Positions 105 to 40,505 of a stretch of DNA of 64,000 bases are shown piece by piece; the stretch's first letter is position 1, and the number at the start of each line of letters is the position of its first letter. The notes beneath the pieces are model-generated. The model worked only from the letters and a program-made list of their open reading frames with translations. It did not search any database and was not told the DNA's origin. Source of the DNA: a candidate division WOR-3 bacterium (GTDB taxonomy: Bacteria; Hydrothermota; UBA3072). Both the position numbers and the translations under genes were made by a program. The DNA is taken from contig JBDRZZ010000009.1 in the NCBI GenBank assembly GCA_039804165.1, positions 1 through 64,000 on the forward strand, read 5' to 3'.

Positions 105-674
105 ATGAAGGTGAAAAAAGTGATTTCTGTTCTTCTTCTCGCTTTTGTCCTACTTAGCATTGCTTATCTAATCAAAGGAGAAATCATGAATAAAAAAGAG
201 GAAAAAATGCAAAAGGAAGAAATCCGAGAGGAGGTGGATACTATTACTGAAAAAGCCCCTGAAATTCCTGATGTTAATGCAACAAAGAATGAAACAAAAA
301 CGCAAAATTCGGCTCCCAAAAAAGAAGAGAAGAAGAAAAAAGTGCTTGCCTACTATTTTCATGGAACCCACCGATGCCCCACCTGCCTTACAATTGAAAG
401 ATATTCAAAAGAAGCAATCGAATCTTATTTCGCAAGGGAGTTGAAGGATGGAATATTGGAGTTCAGTTCTATAAATGTAGAGGAACCAGAAAATAGACAT
501 TTCATCCAGGATTACCAGCTATACACAAAATCTCTCATAATTTCACTCTGGGAAGATAATAAGGAGAAAAAATGGAAAAATCTCACCGAGGTCTGGTCTT
601 ATGTTCACAGTAAAGAAAATTTCTATCAATATGTTAAAAATGAAGTGGAGAAGTTTTTAGAGGACACAAGATAA
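105..674 (+). CDS. ArsF-family thioredoxin-like protein (nitroreductase subunit ArsF type)
   Basis: A 189-residue protein with an N-terminal membrane anchor (about residues 5-24), a highly charged Lys/Glu-rich linker (about 28-80) and a compact C-terminal domain carrying a CPTC pair (C91, C94) after FHGTHR. The domain layout and its place before an ArsG-like membrane protein fit the ArsF family. Known members act with ArsG/ArsE in reduction and efflux of nitro-aromatic arsenicals, or more generally supply thiol electrons. The stop codon overlaps the start of the next gene by 1 nt (TAATG), so the two are translationally coupled. An SD (aaggag) sits 4-5 nt before the ATG. The substrate cannot be read from sequence; the thioredoxin-like extracytoplasmic role is firm, the arsenic role is inference. 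Confidence 0.72.
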   Translation: MKVKKVISVLLLAFVLLSIAYLIKGEIMNKKEEKMQKEEIREEVDTITEKAPEIPDVNATKNETKTQNSAPKKEEKKKKVLAYYFHGTHRCPTCLTIERYSKEAIESYFARELKDGILEFSSINVEEPENRHFIQDYQLYTKSLIISLWEDNKEKKWKNLTEVWSYVHSKENFYQYVKNEVEKFLEDTR

Positions 675-1360
675 TGGGAATTCTACCACTCCTTACGGCA
701 TTATGGCTTGGGATATTGACTTCGATAAGTCCCTGTCCTCTTGCAACCAATATTGCTGCGATATCATTTGTGTCATACAGAATTGTGCATAAGGCTGTTG
801 TTCTTCTATCTGGGATTCTCTACACAATGGGAAGAGCGATAACCTATATTGTTATTGGTTTTCTCGTTGTTAGGGCAGCCGTTAATATTCCCCTCGTTTC
901 GAATTTCCTCCAGCTCTACATCAACAAAATCCTGGGAATACTTCTGATTCTGGTGGGAATGTTTTTACTTGATTTGTTGTTTAACATAAAAATACCGAGC
1001 ATTTTCGTTTCTGAGTCCTGGCAGAGAAAACTCGACGAGATAGGCATTTTCGGCTCTCTATTTTTGGGAATGCTTTTCGCTCTTGCGTTCTGTCCTGTTT
1101 CTGCCGCTCTATTTTTTGGGAGTCTTATACCTATCGCACTTAAGGCAAATTCAGGAGTGATTTTGCCGCTATTTTATGGAATGGGAACGGGGTTACCTGT
1201 TTTACTTTTTGCTATTTTCATTGCTCTTGGTTCTTCCCACATAGGCAGAATGTATAAAAGAGCAGTCAAACTTGAAGCGATTACAAAGAAAGTTACAGGA
1301 ATTATTTTTATTCTGGTTGGAATTTACTATGTATTGGCTTACATCTTTAAATTGTTTTAA
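674..1360 (+). CDS. ArsG/CcdA-like thiol-disulfide transmembrane transporter
   Basis: A 228-residue polytopic protein with about six membrane helices and the internal duplication of the CcdA/DsbD family. Each half carries one Cys followed by Pro in a helix (C21 in SISPCPLA, C140 in ALAFCPVS). These are the residues that pass electrons across the membrane in CcdA-type proteins. It lies between an ArsF-like protein and a small CPRC thioredoxin, which matches the ArsG-type clusters described for aromatic arsenical efflux and reduction. Likely it moves reducing power from the cytoplasmic thioredoxin to the extracytoplasmic ArsF-like domain. It starts at the ATG overlapping the previous stop. A plain CcdA role (thiol reduction only) is the main alternative. 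Confidence 0.72.
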   Translation: MGILPLLTALWLGILTSISPCPLATNIAAISFVSYRIVHKAVVLLSGILYTMGRAITYIVIGFLVVRAAVNIPLVSNFLQLYINKILGILLILVGMFLLDLLFNIKIPSIFVSESWQRKLDEIGIFGSLFLGMLFALAFCPVSAALFFGSLIPIALKANSGVILPLFYGMGTGLPVLLFAIFIALGSSHIGRMYKRAVKLEAITKKVTGIIFILVGIYYVLAYIFKLF

Positions 1361-1373
1361 AAGGAGGTAATAG

Positions 1374-1613
1374 ATGAAAATTCAAATTGCAGGACCTGGT
1401 TGTCCAAGGTGCTTGGCGACCGAGAAGGCTGTAAAAGAAGCCTGCGCCCAGTTGAAACTTTCTGCCGAGATTTCTCATCTTTACGATATAAGAGAATACG
1501 CAAGACTTGGAGTCAGAATGACACCTGCCGTGATTATCGATGGAAAAGTTGTTATTTCAGGTAAGGTTCCATCTGTAGAAGAAATAAAGAAAATCCTAAG
1601 CACCCCAAAATAA
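1374..1613 (+). CDS. Small thioredoxin-family protein (CPRC)
   Basis: A 79-residue thioredoxin/glutaredoxin-like domain of the short archaeal/bacterial type (TM0996/MTH895 class). It begins with a beta strand, then GPGCPRCLATEKAV with the redox pair C10/C13 at the start of helix 1, and has the cis-Pro region MTPAVIIDGK. There is no signal peptide, so it is cytoplasmic. A strong SD (aaggagg) precedes the ATG and the gap to the ArsG-like gene is 13 bp. It probably feeds electrons to the CcdA/ArsG-like carrier. It is the last gene of the cluster; the following 127 bp hold the promoter of a new unit. Confidence 0.85.
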   Translation: MKIQIAGPGCPRCLATEKAVKEACAQLKLSAEISHLYDIREYARLGVRMTPAVIIDGKVVISGKVPSVEEIKKILSTPK

Positions 1614-1663
1614 AAAGTAATTTAAACATAGAAAAGAGGCCGAAATAATTCCATAAAGAGGGG

Positions 1664-1691
1664 TTGACTTTTTCATAAAACTTTTTATATT
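1664..1691 (+). promoter_or_regulatory. Promoter of the tetR gene
   Basis: TTGACT at 1664-1669, a 16 bp spacer and TATATT at 1686-1691. A perfect inverted repeat (TTTTATATT-tcg-AATATAAAA, 1683-1703) covers the -10 box and the expected start point. The start codon lies 50 nt downstream after an SD (aaggag). Confidence 0.7.
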
Positions 1692-1700
1692 TCGAATATA

Positions 1701-1715
1701 AAACTAATTTGGTCG
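1701..1715. promoter_or_regulatory. Putative TetR operator, imperfect copy
   Basis: The 15-mer AAACTAATTTGGTCG matches the reverse complement of the perfect palindrome at 2354-2368 at 12 of 15 positions. It lies just downstream of the predicted transcription start of tetR, a position suited to autorepression. That the tetR product binds here is inference. Confidence 0.55.
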
Positions 1716-1740
1716 ATATATACAATTAAGGAGAAGAAAG

Positions 1741-2325
1741 ATGGAAAGAACACAAAAAGATCTTAGAGAAATTATTATAAAGTCGGCTCAAGACATATTT
1801 GCGAGATTCGGTTTTAGAAAAACAACAATGGACGAGATTGCACAATCAATCAATAAGGCAAAAAGTTCCTTATATCATTACTTTACAAGCAAGCAAGAAA
1901 TTTTCAAAGCAATAATAGAGAAAGAAGCTAGTTTGTTTAGAGAAGAAATAACAAGAACGGTTAGTCGTGAAAACACCCCTCAGGGAAAATTACACGTTTA
2001 CATTTTAACAAGAATGCGTATGATAAACCAGCTGGCAAATCTATATAGTGCATTAAAAGATGAATATCTCAAACAATATGATTATATTGAAGAGTTAAGA
2101 GAAAAATACGATAAAGAAGAAATTGAAGTAATTAAAGAAATATTGAAGGAAGGTTGTAAAAGGGGAGTTTATGAAATCGAAAATTTAGATAGGGCAGCAA
2201 GCACTATTGTTTCTATCTTAAAAGGTATGGAATACTCTTGGATTAAAGAAAAAGATGTTAAAAAAGCCGAAAGATATATTGATAATTTATTGGAGATTCT
2301 TTTTTATGGAATAGTTAAAAGATAA
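1741..2325 (+). CDS. TetR/AcrR family transcriptional regulator
   Basis: A 194-residue TetR-type repressor. The N-terminal helix-turn-helix spans about residues 10-55, with the family pattern FGFRKTTMDEIAQSI followed by KSSLYHYFTSKQEIF. The all-helical ligand-binding domain follows (about 60-194). An SD (aaggag) precedes the ATG. It is directly upstream of an RND/MMPL exporter operon, the usual target of such regulators. A perfect 15 bp palindrome lies between the two genes and a related copy lies in its own promoter. The likely role is a ligand-released repressor of itself and of the exporter genes; the ligand is unknown. Confidence 0.88.
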   Translation: MERTQKDLREIIIKSAQDIFARFGFRKTTMDEIAQSINKAKSSLYHYFTSKQEIFKAIIEKEASLFREEITRTVSRENTPQGKLHVYILTRMRMINQLANLYSALKDEYLKQYDYIEELREKYDKEEIEVIKEILKEGCKRGVYEIENLDRAASTIVSILKGMEYSWIKEKDVKKAERYIDNLLEILFYGIVKR

Positions 2326-2353
2326 AAAATTTTTTGCCTATGAGACGAACAAA

Positions 2354-2368
2354 AGACCAAATTGGTCT
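2354..2368. promoter_or_regulatory. Putative TetR operator, perfect palindrome
   Basis: AGACCAA-a-TTGGTCT: two 7 bp arms around one central base, in the 68 bp gap between tetR and the RND exporter gene. Size and symmetry fit TetR-family operators. A 12/15 copy lies upstream of tetR. Confidence 0.65.
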
Positions 2369-2393
2369 ACATTTATAAAAGAGGATTTGTAAG

Positions 2394-4655
2394 ATGGGGA
2401 AGTTTCCCAATCTAGTAATTAAATGCCGTATACCAATTATTTTTGTGGTTTCTCTTCTTACTTTTATATTTGGGTATTTTATTAAAGATCTGAAAATCAA
2501 TTCGGATTTTTCGAGTTATCTTCCCAAAAGTGATCAGATAGTAAGAACGCTGAATTATATCAGTGAAAAATATAGTGGAAAACATATAGCAATGGTTGCC
2601 TTGGAATCGAATGAAATTTTTACAAAAGAAACAATTGAAAGAATTAACTATTTAACCTCTAATTTCAGGCTCATTGATGGTGTTTCATATGTGACAAGTT
2701 TGACAAATATTCTTGATATTAAAAAGACTCCTGAAGGGATAGAAATCGCAAAGCTTATTGATGAATATAATTTACCTACAACTGAAGAGGAACTTAAGAG
2801 TTTAAAAAACTATACCCTTTCAAAGGATATGTACAAGGGACGGATAGTTTCAGAGGATTCGAGGGCAGCTTTAATTATTTGTCGGATTAGAGATGGAAGT
2901 GATGAAGTAAAGATAGCTAAGGAAATAAAGAAAATTGTTGAAGAAGCAAATATAGAAGAAAAAGTTTATTATGCAGGTTATTCTTTTAATATACTTGAAG
3001 TGAATAAAATTATTTTAAAGGACTTAAGATTTCTGCTTATTCTTTCTCTTCTTATAATTGTAATAGTTTTATTTTTAAGCTACCATTCTTTTAGAGGAGT
3101 TATTCTTCCAATCCTTTCTGTTCTTATTAGTATTATCTGGGTACTCGGAGTAATGAACATATTTAAAATTCAAATCACCTTGGTTACAAATGTGATTCCT
3201 ATAATCTTAATTGCAGTTGGCAGTGCTTATTGTATTCATGTGATCTGTAGGGTTTCTGAAGATGAGGAAAAATTTAATGATAGGATTAACCAAATCAAAT
3301 TTTCCTTAAATGAAGTTGCATTACCAATATTTTTAGCGGCAATAACAACAATGATAGGATTTATTTCTTTTATTTTTGGTTCTTATTTAACTGTAATTCG
3401 GGATTTCGGCATTCTTTCGGCTTTTGGAATTCTCTTTTCTTTTATAATTTCTGTTACTTTTGTGCCCTCTCTCCTGTCATTTTTACCAGTCAAGAATACT
3501 TCGGTGAATAAAAGTATTCATAAGAAAAAAAGCAAAGAAGAATTTAATCTGTTTGCAAATATGCTCGGTAGATGGATTTTAAAGAATAAGAAACCTATCG
3601 TTATTATAGGAATATTAATTTGTCTCTTTAGCGCTTCTAATATTATAACGATTAAAAGAAGTTCAGATATGACAAAATACTTTAAATCAGGAAGTGAAAT
3701 GAGGAAGTCTTCAGAAATGATACGGAACAAATTTTATGGAGACCTTCCTGTTTATTTTTTGATAAAGGGCGACATCCAAGAACCAAAAGTTTTAAACGAA
3801 ATGAAAAAATTACAAGAATTTATAAAATCACAAAAATACATTTATAATCCCCAGTCAATTGTGGATATTATAGAAGAAATGAATGATGTAATAGGAGAAG
3901 GCAAAAAAATTCCAGATAGCAAAGAAAAAATAGAAAATTTATGGTTTCTTATTGAGGGTCAAGAAATGATAGAACAATTAGTTTCTCAAGACAAGAAAGA
4001 AGCAATTATTCAAGCAACTATGTCAACTGTTGATAATCCAAGAGAAATGGACAAATTAGACAAGAACATTCAAGAATATATCAGCAAAAATACGGATTCT
4101 TCTATTATAACTATTGAGGTGACAGGAATACCATTTATCTATCAACACATGGATAGGGCTATTATTCGAAGTCAGTTATTGAGTTTAATTATCGCTATTA
4201 TTTTTGTATTTATATGTATGATTCTTTTGCAGCGGTCATTTGTGGAGGGATTTATCGGGATTATTCCAATCGTACTTACTCTTTTAATTCTATTTGGTTT
4301 TATGGGGTTTTTACGAATCCCCTTGAACCTGGCAACAGTGCTTGTAGGTAGTATTTCCATTGGAATTGGAATTGATTACCCAATACACTTTACAAACCGC
4401 TTTCGCAAAGAATTTTTTAAAAATAGAAATGAAGCTGAAGCATTGAATACCACCCTAAACACAGTAGGCAAGGCAATATTAATCAATGTGTTAACTGTAA
4501 CGATGGGCTTTTTAGTTTTAGTTATGAGTAATCTTGTCCCACTTCAACACCTTGGAATTCTTATAGCAATTACAATGCTAAGTTCTGGAACTGCTACTTT
4601 AACCATCTTACCAGCAATAATTCTTTTAACTAAAGAAAAATGGGTAAAATTATAA
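2394..4655 (+). CDS. RND-superfamily exporter, MMPL/HAE3 type
   Basis: A 753-residue inner-membrane protein with the duplicated RND layout: TM1 (about 13-32), a periplasmic domain, a five-helix bundle (about 210-375), a new TM (about 397-415), a second periplasmic domain and a second helix bundle (about 595-748). The end of the second half carries SIGIGIDYPIHFTNRF, typical of MMPL/HAE3 proteins. It is shorter than the roughly 1000-residue AcrB type, as expected for HAE3. The SD is gaggat. The gene is followed by a LolA-like periplasmic protein and an outer-membrane barrel, a set known in several phyla and thought to move lipids or other hydrophobic molecules to the outer membrane. It is probably under control of the upstream TetR protein. 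Confidence 0.87.
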   Translation: MGKFPNLVIKCRIPIIFVVSLLTFIFGYFIKDLKINSDFSSYLPKSDQIVRTLNYISEKYSGKHIAMVALESNEIFTKETIERINYLTSNFRLIDGVSYVTSLTNILDIKKTPEGIEIAKLIDEYNLPTTEEELKSLKNYTLSKDMYKGRIVSEDSRAALIICRIRDGSDEVKIAKEIKKIVEEANIEEKVYYAGYSFNILEVNKIILKDLRFLLILSLLIIVIVLFLSYHSFRGVILPILSVLISIIWVLGVMNIFKIQITLVTNVIPIILIAVGSAYCIHVICRVSEDEEKFNDRINQIKFSLNEVALPIFLAAITTMIGFISFIFGSYLTVIRDFGILSAFGILFSFIISVTFVPSLLSFLPVKNTSVNKSIHKKKSKEEFNLFANMLGRWILKNKKPIVIIGILICLFSASNIITIKRSSDMTKYFKSGSEMRKSSEMIRNKFYGDLPVYFLIKGDIQEPKVLNEMKKLQEFIKSQKYIYNPQSIVDIIEEMNDVIGEGKKIPDSKEKIENLWFLIEGQEMIEQLVSQDKKEAIIQATMSTVDNPREMDKLDKNIQEYISKNTDSSIITIEVTGIPFIYQHMDRAIIRSQLLSLIIAIIFVFICMILLQRSFVEGFIGIIPIVLTLLILFGFMGFLRIPLNLATVLVGSISIGIGIDYPIHFTNRFRKEFFKNRNEAEALNTTLNTVGKAILINVLTVTMGFLVLVMSNLVPLQHLGILIAITMLSSGTATLTILPAIILLTKEKWVKL

Positions 4656-4670
4656 AAAGGGAGGTCAAAA

Positions 4671-5417
4671 ATGAAAAAAATATTCTCAGTAAATCTATGT
4701 GTTTTAATTATAATAAGTAGTCTACCAATTAAAGCACAAGAAGAAAAACTAACTGCCTCTCAAATACTTGAGAAAGTCGATAATGTTGTTAACGCTCCAG
4801 AGGACCAGAGCTTAAAAGTAAAAATTATTCTTATTGACGAAAAGGGGATAGAAGAACGAGAAATAAGCATGCTTCAGAAAGGAAGTCACAAAAGATTAGT
4901 GAAATTTCTATCCCCCGCTTCTCAGAAGGGTATTGGTGTTCTTTCTCTTCCAAATGATATTATGTATTTATATCTACCAGCCTTCAAAAAAACAAGGCGA
5001 ATTGCTTCCCATATAAAAAATACAAAATTCGCAGGGACTGATTTTACCTATGAAGATATGGAGGCGATAAGATATTCAGAAAAATACATACCAGAGCTAC
5101 TTAAAAAAGAAGAAAATCATTTCATTCTTCAACTTAAACCTAAAGAAGGGGTCAAGACGGATTATTCGAAGTTGATTATGTGGGTGAGGTGCGATAACTT
5201 TTGCACAAGTAAAATTGAATATTATGATAAAGGAGAGAATCTCTATAAAGTTATGACAAATAAAAGAATTGAAACGGTAGGAAACTATTGGATATCCAGA
5301 GAATCCGAAATGGAAGATTTAAAAGCAAGGCATAAGACAATAATGATTTTAGAAGAGATAAAATTCGATTCAAAACTATCCGACGAAATTTTCACAGAAC
5401 GTTATTTAAGTAGATAA
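4671..5417 (+). CDS. Outer membrane lipoprotein-sorting (LolA-like) protein
   Basis: A 248-residue protein with a clear signal peptide (about 1-22, ending IKAQ) and then a beta-rich LolA/LolB-like domain. Recognisable pieces are the ASQILEKVDNVVNAPEDQS helix, the KRLVKFLSPASQKGIGVLSL strand region and FAGTDFTYEDME. The last is a hallmark of the outer-membrane lipoprotein-sorting family that accompanies MMPL exporters. A strong SD (gggagg) precedes it and the gap to the RND gene is 15 bp. It likely carries a hydrophobic cargo across the periplasm between the exporter and the barrel encoded next. The cargo is unknown, and an actual role in lipoprotein sorting is not implied. Confidence 0.82.
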   Translation: MKKIFSVNLCVLIIISSLPIKAQEEKLTASQILEKVDNVVNAPEDQSLKVKIILIDEKGIEEREISMLQKGSHKRLVKFLSPASQKGIGVLSLPNDIMYLYLPAFKKTRRIASHIKNTKFAGTDFTYEDMEAIRYSEKYIPELLKKEENHFILQLKPKEGVKTDYSKLIMWVRCDNFCTSKIEYYDKGENLYKVMTNKRIETVGNYWISRESEMEDLKARHKTIMILEEIKFDSKLSDEIFTERYLSR

Positions 5418-33317: not shown

Positions 33318-36300
33318 TTAAAAATCAACCCTCACACCAAAAACGAAATAGCGAGGATTGTGGAAGGCAAGATGTGGTAGATTTGGGTCATTAATATAAG
33401 GTTTCTCATCACTGCTAAAGTCTCCTGGTCGATCATTCCCTTTTTCTCCAAAGACCTCATAACCTTCTTCTCCATAAAGAGGCAATTTCAAGGATTTAAA
33501 ATAATCATCTCTATCTTTCATATTAACAAAACAACCTGACCCTGCATCCAGATACTTCCAATTAAATAAATTATCAACCTCTCCAAATAGAGAGAGATTT
33601 ACACCGGCAAAACTCAAATCTTTCGTAAGTCTTGCTTGAACATTCTGATAAGGCTTCCATTGCAAATTTAAAATCTTGCACTTTGGATCCCATGCTTCGT
33701 GGAGTGGATCAAAAGTTTCCCAAGCTCCCGCTTCCCAGGTATAGCTAAAGCTTAAAGAAATTCCTCCTAAAATTACTCCCAAATTCTTAGGTGTAAGGAA
33801 TTGAATATTCGCATTCAGGATTGGCTGAGGACGAGTTATAACCTCTAATGTGTCCCAAGCTCCAAGTTGTGCATTATCAACTGGCTCATAGTAATGAGCC
33901 TTTCTACCAACTCTACCATAACTTCTAACCCTATAATCATAGTTCAACCAACCTCTAACCCAATCTCCAAATTCTCTACTAATCCTAAAGTCTATCCCAC
34001 GAATGTCCTCAAAATTCAGATTTTCAGGAACCCTATAAGCAGGATTTGTCCTACCTTCTCCAAGATACCAAACTCCTTCAAGTTGATTCCTAATGTCTTT
34101 ATAATAACCTGCAAGGTGAATCATAAATAAATTCCCAATACCCCAGTCTGTTCCAAGCTCATAAGCCCTTGTTAATGGCCATTCAAGCTCAGGATCTCCA
34201 ACATACAAAACACTCAATCTATCAGGCCCCCAAGAGATCTGGTACATATCTTGAGAAGATGGTAGAGAATAAAAATCTCCATAACTAAAATACAACTTAA
34301 CATTTTCTGCTATTGGATGGGAAACACTCACACGAGGTGATAAGTAAAAATGCCCTTTTGCAGGATGCATCTCTGCAGAAACTGTTTTATCCATCAAACC
34401 CTTCTTATAATCACTCGTGAATAAAGGCTCATAATTACGCAAGTTACTAAACCACTCGCAATTTGGATCATTCCAATCGGCCCTAACACCCACTGTTGCG
34501 ATAAAACCTTCAAATTCAATCTTATCTTGAATGTATGCGCCTCCTCTAATCGGGCTAGCATCCCACTTCGTTACCCAGTTCTCATGATCAGCTTCCCATC
34601 TGTTTTTCTCGTAATAAGTGTGCATATCGTCATATTCATACTCAAAACCAACCTTTATTTCATTATTTGAATTAATCTGGGTCGTGAGATCAGCCTTAAA
34701 GGTCCAGGTCACAGAATGCGAAGAATCAACAGCTCCAGCACAAGATGCACCCATATCAATTCCATCCGGTTGAACAAGGGTGGAACCTATGAAATACCCA
34801 TATGGAATCTCTGTGACTTTTATTCCGCTTGGTAAAGTATACTTTGTAACAGTATCTCTTGGCTCAAATGACTCATATGCGCTACACTCTCTTCTATTAC
34901 CCAACCGAGTAATCCTCAAAGAATAAAAAGTCTTTTCACTTAACACATGGTCAAAAGAAATCCCTTGCATATCATAATAAACATTGTAAGGAGGTATAAA
35001 AGCAGGATAATAAGCCGCCATATTGGTTACTAAAAGACTTCTAAAAGCATCATCTGCACTTGTTAGATAAATTCCCCCAACTCCACTAGGTCTATTTCCA
35101 GCAGGACCTTCCTTATAACCTCTACCTTGAACGAATTCAATAACTTGATCTCCAAGAGTTCCTCTACTTAAATCCAAATAAGGTGGAGTTCCTTCTCCAC
35201 CAAACTCTCCATTTGAATTATGAGATAAAGAGTTCCTTTCTCCATACATTAAATCAAGGGATACTTTCATTGATTTTGTAAGACGAGAAACCAACTTAAG
35301 ACAACCATTATGCTCTGTAAAATACTCCCTGCTTGAAGGAAGAGGAAAAGCCTCTTTATTTAGCCTATAGGCTCCATAAAAACTCAAATCCCCCAAAAAT
35401 TTACCAACTACAGGAACAGGACCTCCAAACCCAGCATCCACACTCCAGTCTGGTTTATCTCCGTATTTCCCTACCCTTGGAGGACCATCATAATCAGGAG
35501 GAACTAATTCTTCCGCACCCTGGAGTCTATGAGACCAAATAAAAGACTCCCTCAACTTCCTTGCACTATCAGGATTATTCTTAGCTAAAACAAGCCATCC
35601 ATTTGTAAATTCTTTATACTTTTCCATTAAAGCTTTATAATATTCAGATGCAACAGTGTCACCTGCTTTCAAAGCGTTGTTGGACTTCTTTAAAAGACCT
35701 CTCTTCCCTAACCAACAAAGACTGTCTACATAATCTACCACAGTATCTTTCCCTTTTACCATTATTCTCATTGCAGGTGCCTCTGTTAAAACATAAGCTC
35801 CAACCCAATAATTTGTTGTATCAAATAGTGAAGGGCCAAGATGCTTCATATGGGGAGGGCTATACCTAAATGTAGCTGTCCCTTCATAACTAACAGAAGG
35901 TTCTCTTGTTACAATATTTATTAAACCAGCGCGAAGATTCCCATACTCTGGAGCAAAACCACCTTTTACCACACTCACTTCCTTTACCATACTTAAAGGT
36001 GGTCTTAAAGCAGGAGAATTCGTCCTACCATCTACTAAATTCAAACCATCTCTTGTAAAACTAACCTGATCCAAAGTTCCGCCTCGCACTAATAAATCTC
36101 GAACCCCAGCCTGCTTATTAATATAATCTCCAATATCATTAACAAAAGGAACCGCTTCTATATTTTCCCTTTTTGCAGAAATAGCTGAAGAGGCGAGGTC
36201 TAATTTTATAAGGTCTATTTTCGCCTTTACCGTAACTCCTTCTCCAGGAACCACAGTTCGCTTTAGTTCAAATTTAAGACGAGTAGTAAGATCTGAAACA

Positions 36301-36611
36301 ACCTCTACACCTCTAAGAGTCATACTCTCATAACCTATTAACCTCGCTTGAACATTGTAAATATCGGGGGGAACATTCAAAATAAAGAAAAACCCATTCT
36401 CATCTGTAGCTGCTCCCATAGCGGTTCCTTCAATAATCACATTTGCACCAATTAGAGGTTCACCAGTTTGCGCATCTACAACAGTTCCAGCAATTTTTCC
36501 TGTAATACCCGCCTCAACATTCGGGCTATAGAAGAAGAAAGAAAAAACAAGAAGTGCTACAATTATAATCCTCCTGGGTGACAAAAAATTCTCCTTTCCC
36601 ATCCTTTTCAT
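33318..36611 (-). CDS. TonB-dependent receptor with carboxypeptidase-regulatory N-domain
   Basis: A 1097-residue outer-membrane receptor. Signal peptide (about 1-34); carboxypeptidase-regulatory-like beta-sandwich (about 35-125: KIAGTVVDAQTGEPLIGANV, ATDENGFFFILNVPP); plug domain (about 130-245: VRDLLVRGGTLDQVSFTRDG, LINIVTREPSV); then a long 22-strand barrel ending FVFGVRVDF with C-terminal Phe. The SD aaggagg precedes the ATG. A strong promoter 190 nt upstream gives a long leader with a 12 bp direct repeat. No STN domain is present, so it does not look like a sigma/anti-sigma-coupled receptor. The substrate is unknown; the nearby NikR and SBP-TonB genes hint at nickel or a chelate. Confidence 0.88.
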   Translation of the reverse strand: MKRMGKENFLSPRRIIIVALLVFSFFFYSPNVEAGITGKIAGTVVDAQTGEPLIGANVIIEGTAMGAATDENGFFFILNVPPDIYNVQARLIGYESMTLRGVEVVSDLTTRLKFELKRTVVPGEGVTVKAKIDLIKLDLASSAISAKRENIEAVPFVNDIGDYINKQAGVRDLLVRGGTLDQVSFTRDGLNLVDGRTNSPALRPPLSMVKEVSVVKGGFAPEYGNLRAGLINIVTREPSVSYEGTATFRYSPPHMKHLGPSLFDTTNYWVGAYVLTEAPAMRIMVKGKDTVVDYVDSLCWLGKRGLLKKSNNALKAGDTVASEYYKALMEKYKEFTNGWLVLAKNNPDSARKLRESFIWSHRLQGAEELVPPDYDGPPRVGKYGDKPDWSVDAGFGGPVPVVGKFLGDLSFYGAYRLNKEAFPLPSSREYFTEHNGCLKLVSRLTKSMKVSLDLMYGERNSLSHNSNGEFGGEGTPPYLDLSRGTLGDQVIEFVQGRGYKEGPAGNRPSGVGGIYLTSADDAFRSLLVTNMAAYYPAFIPPYNVYYDMQGISFDHVLSEKTFYSLRITRLGNRRECSAYESFEPRDTVTKYTLPSGIKVTEIPYGYFIGSTLVQPDGIDMGASCAGAVDSSHSVTWTFKADLTTQINSNNEIKVGFEYEYDDMHTYYEKNRWEADHENWVTKWDASPIRGGAYIQDKIEFEGFIATVGVRADWNDPNCEWFSNLRNYEPLFTSDYKKGLMDKTVSAEMHPAKGHFYLSPRVSVSHPIAENVKLYFSYGDFYSLPSSQDMYQISWGPDRLSVLYVGDPELEWPLTRAYELGTDWGIGNLFMIHLAGYYKDIRNQLEGVWYLGEGRTNPAYRVPENLNFEDIRGIDFRISREFGDWVRGWLNYDYRVRSYGRVGRKAHYYEPVDNAQLGAWDTLEVITRPQPILNANIQFLTPKNLGVILGGISLSFSYTWEAGAWETFDPLHEAWDPKCKILNLQWKPYQNVQARLTKDLSFAGVNLSLFGEVDNLFNWKYLDAGSGCFVNMKDRDDYFKSLKLPLYGEEGYEVFGEKGNDRPGDFSSDEKPYINDPNLPHLAFHNPRYFVFGVRVDF

Positions 36612-36847: not shown

Positions 36848-37261
36848 TTAAAATTTCTTTCCTATACTTGCTTTTATAATGTCGCACTGTTTTACTCCTG
36901 TAGTAGATCTTAACTTATTATAAAACTTATAAATTTCCTTTACTTTTCCCCTAACACTAATTATTTCCATACAATTATCATAATCCATATGAATATGCTG
37001 GGTAGAAACAATAACCTTATGGAAATCGTGCTGTATATCTGTTATTTTCTCTGGAAGGCCACCTTTATGATGATTATAAACGACCAAAATACCACCACAA
37101 ACTTCTCCTTCCTCTTCCCACTCTTTTTTCACTAATCTTTCCCTAATTAAATCTCTAATAGCTTCTGAGCGATTTTTATAACCCTCTTTTTTTATCAAAT
37201 TATCAAACCTTTTAAGGAGATCCTCTCCCATAGAAATTCCAAATCTTATAACCTTCTCCAT
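36848..37261 (-). CDS. nikR: NikR-type nickel-responsive regulator
   Basis: A 137-residue ribbon-helix-helix/ACT protein. The RHH part is at 1-45 (VIRFGISMGEDLLKRFDNLI, NRSEAIRDLIRERL). The metal-binding part contains QHDFHKVIVSTQHIHMD and YDNCMEIISVRG. All four high-affinity nickel ligands known from E. coli NikR (H76, H87, H89, C95) are present with an offset of two: H78, H89, H91, C97. It is encoded 13 bp after the SBP-TonB gene and probably co-transcribed with it. Its stop is only 12 bp before the strong promoter of the TonB-receptor unit. It is expected to repress uptake genes when nickel is sufficient; the operators here are not identified. Confidence 0.93.
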   Translation of the reverse strand: MEKVIRFGISMGEDLLKRFDNLIKKEGYKNRSEAIRDLIRERLVKKEWEEEGEVCGGILVVYNHHKGGLPEKITDIQHDFHKVIVSTQHIHMDYDNCMEIISVRGKVKEIYKFYNKLRSTTGVKQCDIIKASIGKKF

Positions 37262-37273
37262 AAGGAAGCTATT

Positions 37274-39319
37274 TTACTCTACAAATCGCACAGGGAAAGA
37301 ATACCAAATTGCTACAGGTCTATTACCCTGCATTGCTGGAGAAAACTTTAAATTCTTAGCGTTCTCTATCGCAACTTTATCCAAAATGGGATGGGCAGAT
37401 TTTGCAAGAACCACTTTCGTAACATTCCCCTCCTCGGTTATCCACAAATTTAAGTAGACAGTGCCAGTAATTCCTAACCTTCTCGCAGCCTCAGGATACG
37501 GAAAGGAAACCTTATCAAGATTAAGAGGCTTTGGAGGAACTTCGTAAGGGATGAACTTTGGAGCTTCTTCTTCTTCCTCTAAAGCAGTATCAGCTGGTTT
37601 TTCGGGCTCCACTTTAGTAGGAGTTGTTAAAGTGGGTCTCCTCTCAGGAACTTGAGTGGGTGCAGAAGCTTGAAGAACTTCTTCTGCTACCGGGTTAGCT
37701 CTTGGTGGCCTCACAAGTTCTGGCCTAGATACCTCTTCTTCTTTCTTATAACTTTCCCCTAAAGAAGCAAGATCTACACTCACTTCAGGAATCCTCTCAA
37801 ACCATAATTCATCAACATAAGATAAAATTGGTCTTCTGTCCTCCTCTGTTATACCTTGGATTCCTTTTTTAAGAAGGGTTATTTTACGGGGAGTATATAG
37901 AAAAGTATATGGAAGATCATCCCTAATTATTCTTTGGAACTCATATAAAGCTTCCTTTGCTTTTTCTCTATCAAGAGACAAAAGAGCTTCCCCAATTAGG
38001 CTATCTACTTTCCTGTTTTTATACCCAACAAAATTATAAACTCCATCAGAGCTCCAAATTGGGAATGGATTAAATTCCTTCTCAACATTCCATCCAAGGA
38101 TATAAGCATCAAAATCTCCTTCAAATAATCTCTTAATCAACTCTACTCCAGAAACAGGCACAACATTTGCTTGAACCCCAATACCTCTAAGATTAGAAGC
38201 CACTATCTCTCCAACTCTTTTTCTGATCTCATTTTCTTGCTCAACCAAAATATTTACACTAAGTCCTTTATAATATGCCTCCTTTTTAGATTTCGAATAA
38301 CCAAGACCTTCTATTATTTTTCTTGCAGTTTCCTTATCCTCATTCAATGTCCTTAACTCTGGATTATAAGCCCAATGTTCTGGAGTGATAGGTCCATCCA
38401 CAACTTGACCATAGTTCTTTAAAACCTCAGAAATTATCCTTTTCCTATCTATAGCCATACTAAGAGCTTTCCTCAGTTCCTTATTTGGGAAACGTTTGAG
38501 ATTCCATCCTATATATGTATACGATCTCCCTGGAGAAAGAACTTTCACATAAGAAGTAAGAGTATCATAATCTCCTGGAGGTAAATCATATGCAAGATCA
38601 ACACTCCCTCTACCAAGCTCACTCATAAGTTCCTCTATAGAAGATGGGGTATAAAAAACTATCCTATTTAAAGGAGGAATCCCTTTAAAATATCCCTCAT
38701 TTGCGACAAGCTCAATCCATTTCCCCTTATTCCATTCTTTCAGTTTAAAAGGTCCTGAACCAATTGGGTTTAAATTAAAATCAGCATTAATCAGATTTTC
38801 TTCCTTTTCCAAAATATGTTTTGGGATAGGGCGAATATTCGTAACCTGAAGTTCCCCTGCAAAAACTCTATTCAAATTGAAACGAACCTCTCTTGGAGAA
38901 AGCGCCTCAACACTCTCTACATAATTCAGTTTTTGAGCAAGTGGGGATTTATTTTCTTTTTTTAATATTTGATTAACTGTAAAAACTACATCTTCCGCTG
39001 TTATTGGTTTTCCATCATGCCAAGTTGCCCCTTTCGCAATGGTATAGGTAATGGACTTTAAATCTTCAGAATAAACCCAAGATTCGGCAAGAGCGGGTCT
39101 AACTTTACCATCTGGTCTTTCGGAAATTAAAGGAGCAAATATTTGTTCAGTTACAGGTGAAAGCCCTGAAATAGAAGGATAGATTGGATTTAAACTTGAT
39201 GGCTCTTCAAATAATGCTATTATTAGCATACCTCCTCTTTTATCAGAATAATGAAACTCTTCCATCCTCTGGCAACTTAATAAAATAATAAATAAAAGAG
39301 TTACAATAAACTTTTTCAT
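37274..39319 (-). CDS. Substrate-binding lipoprotein (SBP_bac_5) fused to a TonB C-terminal domain
   Basis: A 681-residue protein with two parts that normally belong to different proteins. It has a lipoprotein signal (lipobox LLSC, Cys16) and a peptide/nickel-type substrate-binding domain (about 30-515: EEPSSLNPIYPSISGLSPVT, ATWHDGKPITAEDVVFTVNQ, NPIGSGPFKLKEW, FPNKELRKALSMAIDRKRII). A Pro/Glu-rich linker (about 520-605) follows. The last 75 residues are a TonB C-terminal domain (YPEAARRLGITGTVYLNLWI, VVLAKSAHPILDKVAIENAK, LKFSPAMQGNRPVAIWYSFP). It lacks the N-terminal helix and the His with which TonB contacts ExbB/ExbD. No permease or ATPase gene lies beside it; nikR does. A role in taking cargo from a TonB-dependent receptor is inference. 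Confidence 0.88.
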   Translation of the reverse strand: MKKFIVTLLFIILLSCQRMEEFHYSDKRGGMLIIALFEEPSSLNPIYPSISGLSPVTEQIFAPLISERPDGKVRPALAESWVYSEDLKSITYTIAKGATWHDGKPITAEDVVFTVNQILKKENKSPLAQKLNYVESVEALSPREVRFNLNRVFAGELQVTNIRPIPKHILEKEENLINADFNLNPIGSGPFKLKEWNKGKWIELVANEGYFKGIPPLNRIVFYTPSSIEELMSELGRGSVDLAYDLPPGDYDTLTSYVKVLSPGRSYTYIGWNLKRFPNKELRKALSMAIDRKRIISEVLKNYGQVVDGPITPEHWAYNPELRTLNEDKETARKIIEGLGYSKSKKEAYYKGLSVNILVEQENEIRKRVGEIVASNLRGIGVQANVVPVSGVELIKRLFEGDFDAYILGWNVEKEFNPFPIWSSDGVYNFVGYKNRKVDSLIGEALLSLDREKAKEALYEFQRIIRDDLPYTFLYTPRKITLLKKGIQGITEEDRRPILSYVDELWFERIPEVSVDLASLGESYKKEEEVSRPELVRPPRANPVAEEVLQASAPTQVPERRPTLTTPTKVEPEKPADTALEEEEEAPKFIPYEVPPKPLNLDKVSFPYPEAARRLGITGTVYLNLWITEEGNVTKVVLAKSAHPILDKVAIENAKNLKFSPAMQGNRPVAIWYSFPVRFVE

Positions 39320-39339
39320 TCTCTCCTCCTTTTAATATA

Positions 39340-39367
39340 ATCTTAAGGAAAATATTTAATTAGTCAA
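39340..39367 (-). promoter_or_regulatory. Promoter of the SBP-TonB/nikR unit
   Basis: Minus strand TTGACT (39362-39367), 16 bp, TAAGAT (39340-39345), then a short leader with SD aaggagg before the ATG at 39319. Confidence 0.65.
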
Positions 39368-39499
39368 GGGGATAGAATAGCATAATAGTTAACCCCAAAG
39401 CAGATGATTTACGCTTCAGAGAGGTCTCTCACAAAAAGAGATGAGATTTACAAAATTACGAGGTTATAAAAATATGCAACCCTTTGATAACTCAAAAAA

Positions 39500-40300
39500 C
39501 GATTTGATATGGTAAGATATGCTAAAAAGAATCCATAGCCAAGGCAACTCGGATATTCAAAACAGAAAGATCCACTTTTTGCAAATAGCTTAAGAGACAT
39601 GGCACACAGAAGATTTATAATCGTCCGAGAGCTTCAAAGAAAGTTTACAAAACTTCGGGATGTATAGAGGTTTTAATAGTGAAGAAACGCATTAGGTAAA
39701 ATATCCACCAAAACATTAACGAGAGATTTTGGTATTCCAGTATATCATAAAACCGGAGGGAGAATTCTTCTCCAGAGAAAAGAGAATTTAGACGAAAATA
39801 TACCAGAAAAGAAATAGCTTTTATAAAACAGAAATGGAACTCTTTTACTCAGATAGATATAAGATACCAATCATCTAGACAAGATTTTCATTTTATTTTT
39901 CTTTTATGAAAGCCCTGGGATTACCGAAATAAAGCATAGTACAAGATGTATAATCAAATGGGTTATATTTTACTCCTTACTCACAAAATATAAGTTTAGT
40001 TCATTCCTGTATATTTGGAAGGCTTTTATGTGAGTTCTTAAGCAGAGATAGGATAGGAGAATGATCTCGGAATGAGATGTAGAAACTCTTCATGCTATAA
40101 TAGAAATAGAATTCTTTGATATAGAAGTTTTTAATTCGAAAGGACATTTTTCATAAAATCAATAATTATCTGTTCTTTTCAATACAATAGAAAGAGCCTA
40201 AAACAAGAAAGTAAAAACTCCATCGGATATACTGATTGAAAAATCTTGAAATTCTCCACTAGTTTTATTTTAGATCTTGATAACCTCTTGGAAAAGAAGA
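39500..40300 (+). pseudogene. Decayed IS481-like (HTH + DDE) transposase
   Basis: This 1.1 kb stretch has no long open frame, but conceptual reading across frameshifts and stops gives an ordered transposase. RFDMVRYAKKN then IAKATRIFKTERSTFCK, a stop in place of Trp, then LKRH (HTH, about 39501-39600). Then RRKYTRKEIAFIKQKWNSF and TQIDIRY with the first catalytic Asp (about 39790-39870); ALGLPK, then QDV and SNGLYFTPYSQNISLVHSCI (about 39910-40050). Last, VETLHAIIEIEFFDIEVFNS with the catalytic Glu (40079-40140). The DNGSEF region expected before the last block is deleted. At least three stops and several frameshifts show long inactivity. Terminal repeats could not be found. The following 200 bp hold nothing recognisable. 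Confidence 0.75.
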
Positions 40301-40505
40301 TGGGGTTATCTTTAGATAGAAAGAGGACGTTGTGAATTACATCTTAAAATGTAAAACACTTGTCTTGGAATGTGTAAAATTAAACTTGGGGAAAGCATAA
40401 AATGAGTGATAAGAGAGTGCATAATAAAATTTAAAAGAATTTGGTAAAATAATCCCTTCATTAGAATTTATGTATACTCTGAGAGAAAACCATTCCCTGT
40501 TTCCT

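Follow-up and report, generated by a model that had tools for sequence, protein, structure and literature searches.

The window analysed here is a 64,000-nucleotide stretch of contig JBDRZZ010000009.1 from a candidate division WOR-3 bacterium of the phylum Hydrothermota. On its minus strand, a single open reading frame runs from an ATG at 39319 to a TAA at 37274 uninterrupted by stops and encodes 681 residues that join a family 5 substrate-binding protein (SBP) to a TonB C-terminal domain (CTD). In the order of transcription, the fusion is followed by a NikR-type regulator and then by a TonB-dependent receptor. The features of the locus are as follows, with the evidence in brackets.

39325..39330, minus strand: ribosome-binding site AGGAGG preceding the ATG (sequence)
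37274..39319, minus strand: complete fusion gene, 681 aa, with lipoprotein signal, SBP_bac_5, linker and TonB_C (Pfam, homologues)
39272..39319, minus strand: signal peptide and lipobox, Cys16 being the predicted lipidated residue (C16 invariant in the alignment)
37805..39241, minus strand: SBP family 5 fold, residues 27-505, AppA-like (Pfam, AlphaFold, fold comparison)
37502..37804, minus strand: Pro/Glu-rich linker, residues 506-606, of which 556-594 are disordered (alignment, AlphaFold)
37283..37501, minus strand: TonB C-terminal domain, residues 607-679 (Pfam, AlphaFold model, Foldseek)
37277..37561, minus strand: segment spanning residues about 587-681, very probably exchanged in the window's genus for a CTD of canonical TonB type, with a breakpoint within 556-586 (trees, alignment)
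36848..37261, minus strand: NikR-type regulator (RHH_1 and NikR_C), 12 bp downstream of the fusion, a neighbour conserved in the window's genus only (neighbourhood comparison)
33318..36611, minus strand: TonB-dependent receptor (CarboxypepD_reg, Plug, beta-barrel), a possible partner, not conserved (domain search, neighbourhood comparison)

Both halves of the protein match their Pfam families far above the cut-offs, SBP_bac_5 at residues 72-413 (262 bits, E 1e-77) and TonB_C at residues 607-679 (66 bits, E 3e-18), and the NCBIfam profile tonB_Cterm likewise exceeds its own cut-off on the CTD. The protein begins with a short lipoprotein signal, MKKFIVTLLFIILLSC, whose lipobox Cys is invariant among 26 aligned fusion sequences. 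This signal stands where TonB has the N-terminal transmembrane helix that contacts ExbB/ExbD; the fusion has no such helix and we therefore do not class it as a TonB energy transducer. AlphaFold models the SBP with confidence, leaves residues 556-594 disordered and folds the CTD (pLDDT 89.6), and the top Foldseek matches of the CTD model are themselves TonB CTDs, that of Pseudomonas TonB bound to FoxA first, followed by TonB with TbpA. The SBP domain keeps the SBP_5 hallmarks; among solved structures its sequence comes closest to Bacillus subtilis AppA (E 3e-58), and its fold to AppA, CtaP and NikZ. These results confirm that the fusion is a real architecture, in which a lipobox signal, SBP_bac_5 and a disordered linker precede a genuine TonB CTD. 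The first-pass annotation had described two domains in one frame without a frameshift, a lipobox and a missing motor helix, and all of this stands, as do its two domain assignments; structure prediction also gives the last residues the TonB-like fold whose absence would have refuted it. The Pro/Glu-rich linker that it reported is also there; its length needs correction from about 85 to about 100 residues between the end of the SBP fold and the CTD.

When 147 genomes of the phylum were searched with a profile built from 26 fusions, 46 of them, spread over 12 families, showed the full-length fusion as a single open reading frame, with 30-67 % identity to the window protein; four further genomes have it split across contigs or frames. 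The same architecture is therefore present in related genomes, and the idea that the frame is a chimeric assembly or a chance read-through has practically no probability left. A chimera is untenable given 46 full-length homologues in separate assemblies, single-contig genomes included, and both explanations are contradicted by selection on the tail. In the four genome pairs with unsaturated dS, dN/dS of the CTD is 0.10, 0.03, 0.08 and 0.03 (dS is saturated in two further pairs), while dN of the linker is usually two to five times that of the CTD. Judged from these substitution ratios, the CTD is under purifying selection. Separately, one genome (G117, L134:471-2496) has the fusion as two overlapping frames, one for the SBP part and one for the tail part, which may be a frameshift error or a natural fission.

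A search reaching close relatives alone gave partial SBP matches, and the best matches listed from plasmid copies end by residue 575, short of the TonB domain. Literature searches, whose reach excluded most subscription papers, gave no description of an SBP_5 domain with a TonB CTD, in agreement with the earlier remark that no such system was known. The parts are known already; their combination, an SBP_5 with a motor-less TonB CTD, is real and conserved and is new among the searchable papers. In E. coli lipoproteins, Asp at position +2 causes retention in the inner membrane. It occurs at that position in only one of 30 fusions (in the raw open reading frame of L012), and this near absence would place the protein in the outer membrane by the E. 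coli +2 rule, a rule that may not apply here.

The genes flanking the fusion differ by family, and the gene travels alone. The adjacent nikR is shared by the sister species G001 only, where larB/larC-like genes (named by eye) lie beyond it, and a nickel role, if any, would be local to the window's genus. Elsewhere in the phylum the fusion lies, depending on the family, next to genes for pyrimidine biosynthesis, next to those for an Hpt protein and EF-G, next to sugar-nucleotide/glycosyltransferase and MscS genes, or next to genes for PPDK, peptidases and RibD. These differences rule out a conserved operon that joins the fusion to nikR, to a receptor or to an ABC transporter. Among the families compared, the fusion lies in no operon with cognate Opp/Dpp/Nik permeases and ATPases, and the receptor gene found at 33.3-36.6 kb in the window does not recur as its neighbour. 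Nor is any conserved transporter, receptor or signalling gene found beside the fusion across these families, a result that counts against the receptor-docking function that we favour below. No histidine kinase is adjacent to the fusion; such kinases are found beside standalone SBP_5 genes of the phylum. Neither NikR operator pattern exceeds chance, with 23 matches against 24.6 expected for the E. coli type and 2 against 0.65 for the Geobacter type, a count reached in 11 of 100 shuffles.

SBP_5 proteins normally feed importers of the Opp/Dpp/Nik type, for which three markers were searched; the two family searches (OppD/F and OppC_N) were positive in 11 of 14 control genomes. OppB homologues and OppD/F C-terminal domains (oligo_HPY) each occur in 9 of the 147 genomes; OppC_N occurs in 13, in roughly half of them with a score under the family cut-off. 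OppB, oligo_HPY and OppC_N are all missing in 43 of the 46 full-length carriers. Five of these carriers are single-contig genomes (G072, G090, G098, G121 and G122), so assembly gaps do not account for the missing importer. Opp systems are rare in non-carriers too, which makes their absence a trait of the phylum and not a consequence of the fusion. In contrast, TonB-dependent receptor plugs occur in 147 of 147 genomes, and ExbD and TonB_C each in 100 of the 100 searched.

These counts bear directly on the function first proposed, in which the CTD docks on a receptor and the SBP catches the substrate on entry, passing it on to a transporter of the inner membrane. Part of that proposal holds: the motor helix is missing, the CTD is a real TonB CTD, TonB partners exist, and the exchange of the CTD in the window's genus, described below, is what would be expected if the tail bound TonB's receptors. 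It also gains from the contact of BtuF-type binding proteins with TonB and from substrate release by TonB lacking the transmembrane helix (PMC9853854), and from the position of the fusion 12 bp from nikR in the window's genus, with larB/larC-like genes nearby in G001. What does not hold is capture for ordinary import, given 43 carriers without Opp markers and no conserved transporter or receptor gene alongside. Only the window's genome (G000), G001 and G004 combine the fusion with an importer. The Opp system of the window's genome lies at 58.4-64 kb; it makes such a delivery conceivable in this organism and counts against receptor docking for sensing. The fusion does not generally serve to supply an Opp/Dpp/Nik ABC importer, and we regard delivery for import as unlikely overall.

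The history of the tail is informative about what it may bind. In a tree of the SBP part, all fusions form one clade (SH-aLRT 99), with the window and G001 sequences inside their own family (100). In a tree of the CTD, most fusion CTDs group together (99/97), whereas the CTDs of the window protein and its G001 counterpart nest among the canonical TonBs of their own family (96/95), as sister to a tonB that G001 carries in tandem, immediately ahead of its fusion gene (99/91). A single clade of all fusion CTDs is rejected (p-AU 0.020; 0.021 without family f18, whose CTDs also stand apart, less clearly). In the alignment, proteins of the window's genus retain the family-specific linker motif AEEVLQAS and are of canonical type from PKF(I/V)PYEVPPKPLNLDKV onward. 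It is thus highly probable, from trees and alignment, that the tail was replaced by a canonical TonB-type CTD in this genus; we stop short of certainty because the CTD is short, with 89 columns in the tree and the AU test. The uptake of such a domain suggests that the tail still has to recognise the same targets as TonB. The 1.2-kb gap that precedes the fusion showed no remnant of a tonB. This gap (39320-40505) has no open reading frame of 100 aa, which is unusual in a dense window; it separates the fusion from an aspartate-semialdehyde-dehydrogenase-like gene, at the place where G001 has its tonB.

Two other roles mentioned by the first-pass annotation can be weighed against this history. As an envelope tether, the CTD would bind peptidoglycan or another structure and merely position the SBP lipoprotein. 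TonB_C also ends TPR, CarboxypepD_reg and plain lipoprotein chains of the phylum and may be a general positioning domain; the swap to a canonical TonB-type CTD and the best fold matches, which are receptor-binding TonBs, point instead to TonB-like recognition and leave a tether rather improbable. As a decoy or brake, the motor-less CTD would occupy TonB boxes and limit TonB engagement, the SBP setting the timing. The missing helix, the canonical CTD acquired in the window's genus and the separate TonB_C and ExbD kept in every genome searched all speak for this role, and yet a pure decoy could dispense with an SBP that is in fact conserved as one clade with its SBP_5 hallmarks, which leaves this role improbable too.

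The phylum offers a parallel. Proteins composed of Peripla_BP_6, a linker and TonB_C occur in four genomes (G052, G015, G040 and G048) of two families, f10 and f25 (L055:10692-12257, L130, L131 and L132); they have ordinary signal peptides without a lipobox, and their genomes have no SBP_5 fusion. A TonB tail has thus been joined to binding proteins of unrelated folds, and this speaks for a function. Its additional use as the tail of TPR, CarboxypepD_reg and plain lipoprotein fronts makes TonB_C look like a mobile docking module in this phylum. At L055, the Peripla_BP_6 gene has as neighbours a gene for another periplasmic-binding lipoprotein and genes that by eye resemble those for roadblock proteins and small GTPases. 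Proteins of about 245-290 aa at L103, L105, L108, L109 and L110, most with a lipobox, have TonB_C almost directly after the N-terminal signal and form one clade in the CTD tree. L114 (minus strand, reverse-strand offsets 283-4762) holds a 1490-aa open reading frame with a Ser/Thr protein kinase-like start (by eye) and a TonB_C end.

Other SBP_5 genes of the phylum are associated with histidine kinases or chemoreceptors. In G018, G024, G042 and G074, a standalone SBP_5 lipoprotein gene is the first of an operon that also encodes a HAMP-HisKA-HATPase kinase, a receiver protein and an EAL protein (in G024 recognised from gene order by eye). As far as gene context indicates, the recurrent setting of these other SBP_5 domains is sensing, not import. 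The kinase-operon loci belong to three families (L137:4734-9340, L138:2603-8723, L139:2731-7346 and L140:4971-9586, the last by gene order only). On contig C2 of the window's own genome, L047:4854-8024 encodes a 1056-aa protein with an MCP signalling domain and a C-terminal SBP_bac_5, with no obvious signal peptide and beside cheA- and cheC-like genes; many genomes of the phylum have SBP_5 open reading frames of comparable size (about 1040-1140 aa).

Our tentative reading, to which we give a probability of roughly 40 %, is that the fusion is a lipid-anchored ligand-binding protein that docks on TonB-dependent receptors through a non-energised CTD and serves in sensing or tuning. The periplasmic protein would dock on outer-membrane receptors by a CTD that ExbB/ExbD do not energise, and the lipid anchor and flexible linker would hold the SBP_5 domain beside the periplasmic exit of the receptor. 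There it would capture a ligand on emergence, the candidates being peptide-like or a metal chelate, and its occupancy would report on, or tune, receptor engagement. The docking to TonB boxes, the binding of a ligand, the location in the outer membrane and the role in sensing or tuning are what we infer. We favour such a role at the receptor over delivery for import because most carriers have no importer to receive the ligand; the fusion itself contains no signalling output domain, which counts against sensing.

How a tail with no motor might act is suggested by work on cobalamin. PMC9853854, citing James et al. 2009, states that in native membranes TonB without its membrane helix suffices for cobalamin release from BtuB, and that BtuF binds TonB in solution and interacts with helix-less TonB. 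By analogy, a motor-less CTD with an SBP could dock, promote or await release, and load without ExbB/ExbD. The more specific proposal that the helix-less tail is a passive dock that releases or receives a ligand and passes it to the attached SBP with neither ExbB/ExbD nor an ABC importer, an arrangement that would have arisen at least twice, is possible but doubtful. If true, it would be an undescribed device of the Ton pathway for sensing or capture, independent of ExbB/ExbD and of an ABC importer. How substrates pass from a TonB-dependent receptor into the periplasm, and whether the TonB CTD does more than pull, are under debate; a natural one-chain fusion is a ready reagent for separating docking, release and capture from energy input. 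The fact that most carriers have no cognate importer also suggests a change of function in what is classically an import domain.

Compared with known systems, the fusion is a new combination of familiar parts. The Peripla_BP_6 proteins of f10 and f25 share its order of binding protein, Pro-rich linker and TonB CTD, but have an unrelated SBP fold and no lipobox; we know of no published description of them. Family 5 SBPs (AppA 1xoc, CtaP 5isu, NikZ 4oet) share the fold and sequence over about 480 residues and the lipobox, whereas the fusion adds a linker and TonB CTD, has no ABC operon and mostly no cognate importer. With TonB of the ExbB-ExbD-TonB complex it has in common the sequence and fold of the CTD, whose canonical form is established to bind the TonB box by strand addition (PMC12204202), and the preceding Pro-rich linker, and over its last 92 residues the window protein is 51 % identical to the TonB of its own genome; unlike TonB, it has no motor-binding transmembrane helix, is predicted to be lipidated, carries an SBP domain and lies outside an exbBD operon. 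In MxcH-type receptors (NCBIfam NF038079) a TonB CTD has likewise been transplanted onto another Ton-pathway protein, and the first 82 positions of that profile match the fusion CTD, but by the family description the remainder of the chain is the receptor itself and not an SBP. The BtuF-TonB contact (PMC9853854) also unites a binding protein and a TonB CTD at the receptor exit; there, two proteins, another SBP class and an ABC partner are involved, while the fusion brings both together in one motor-less chain.
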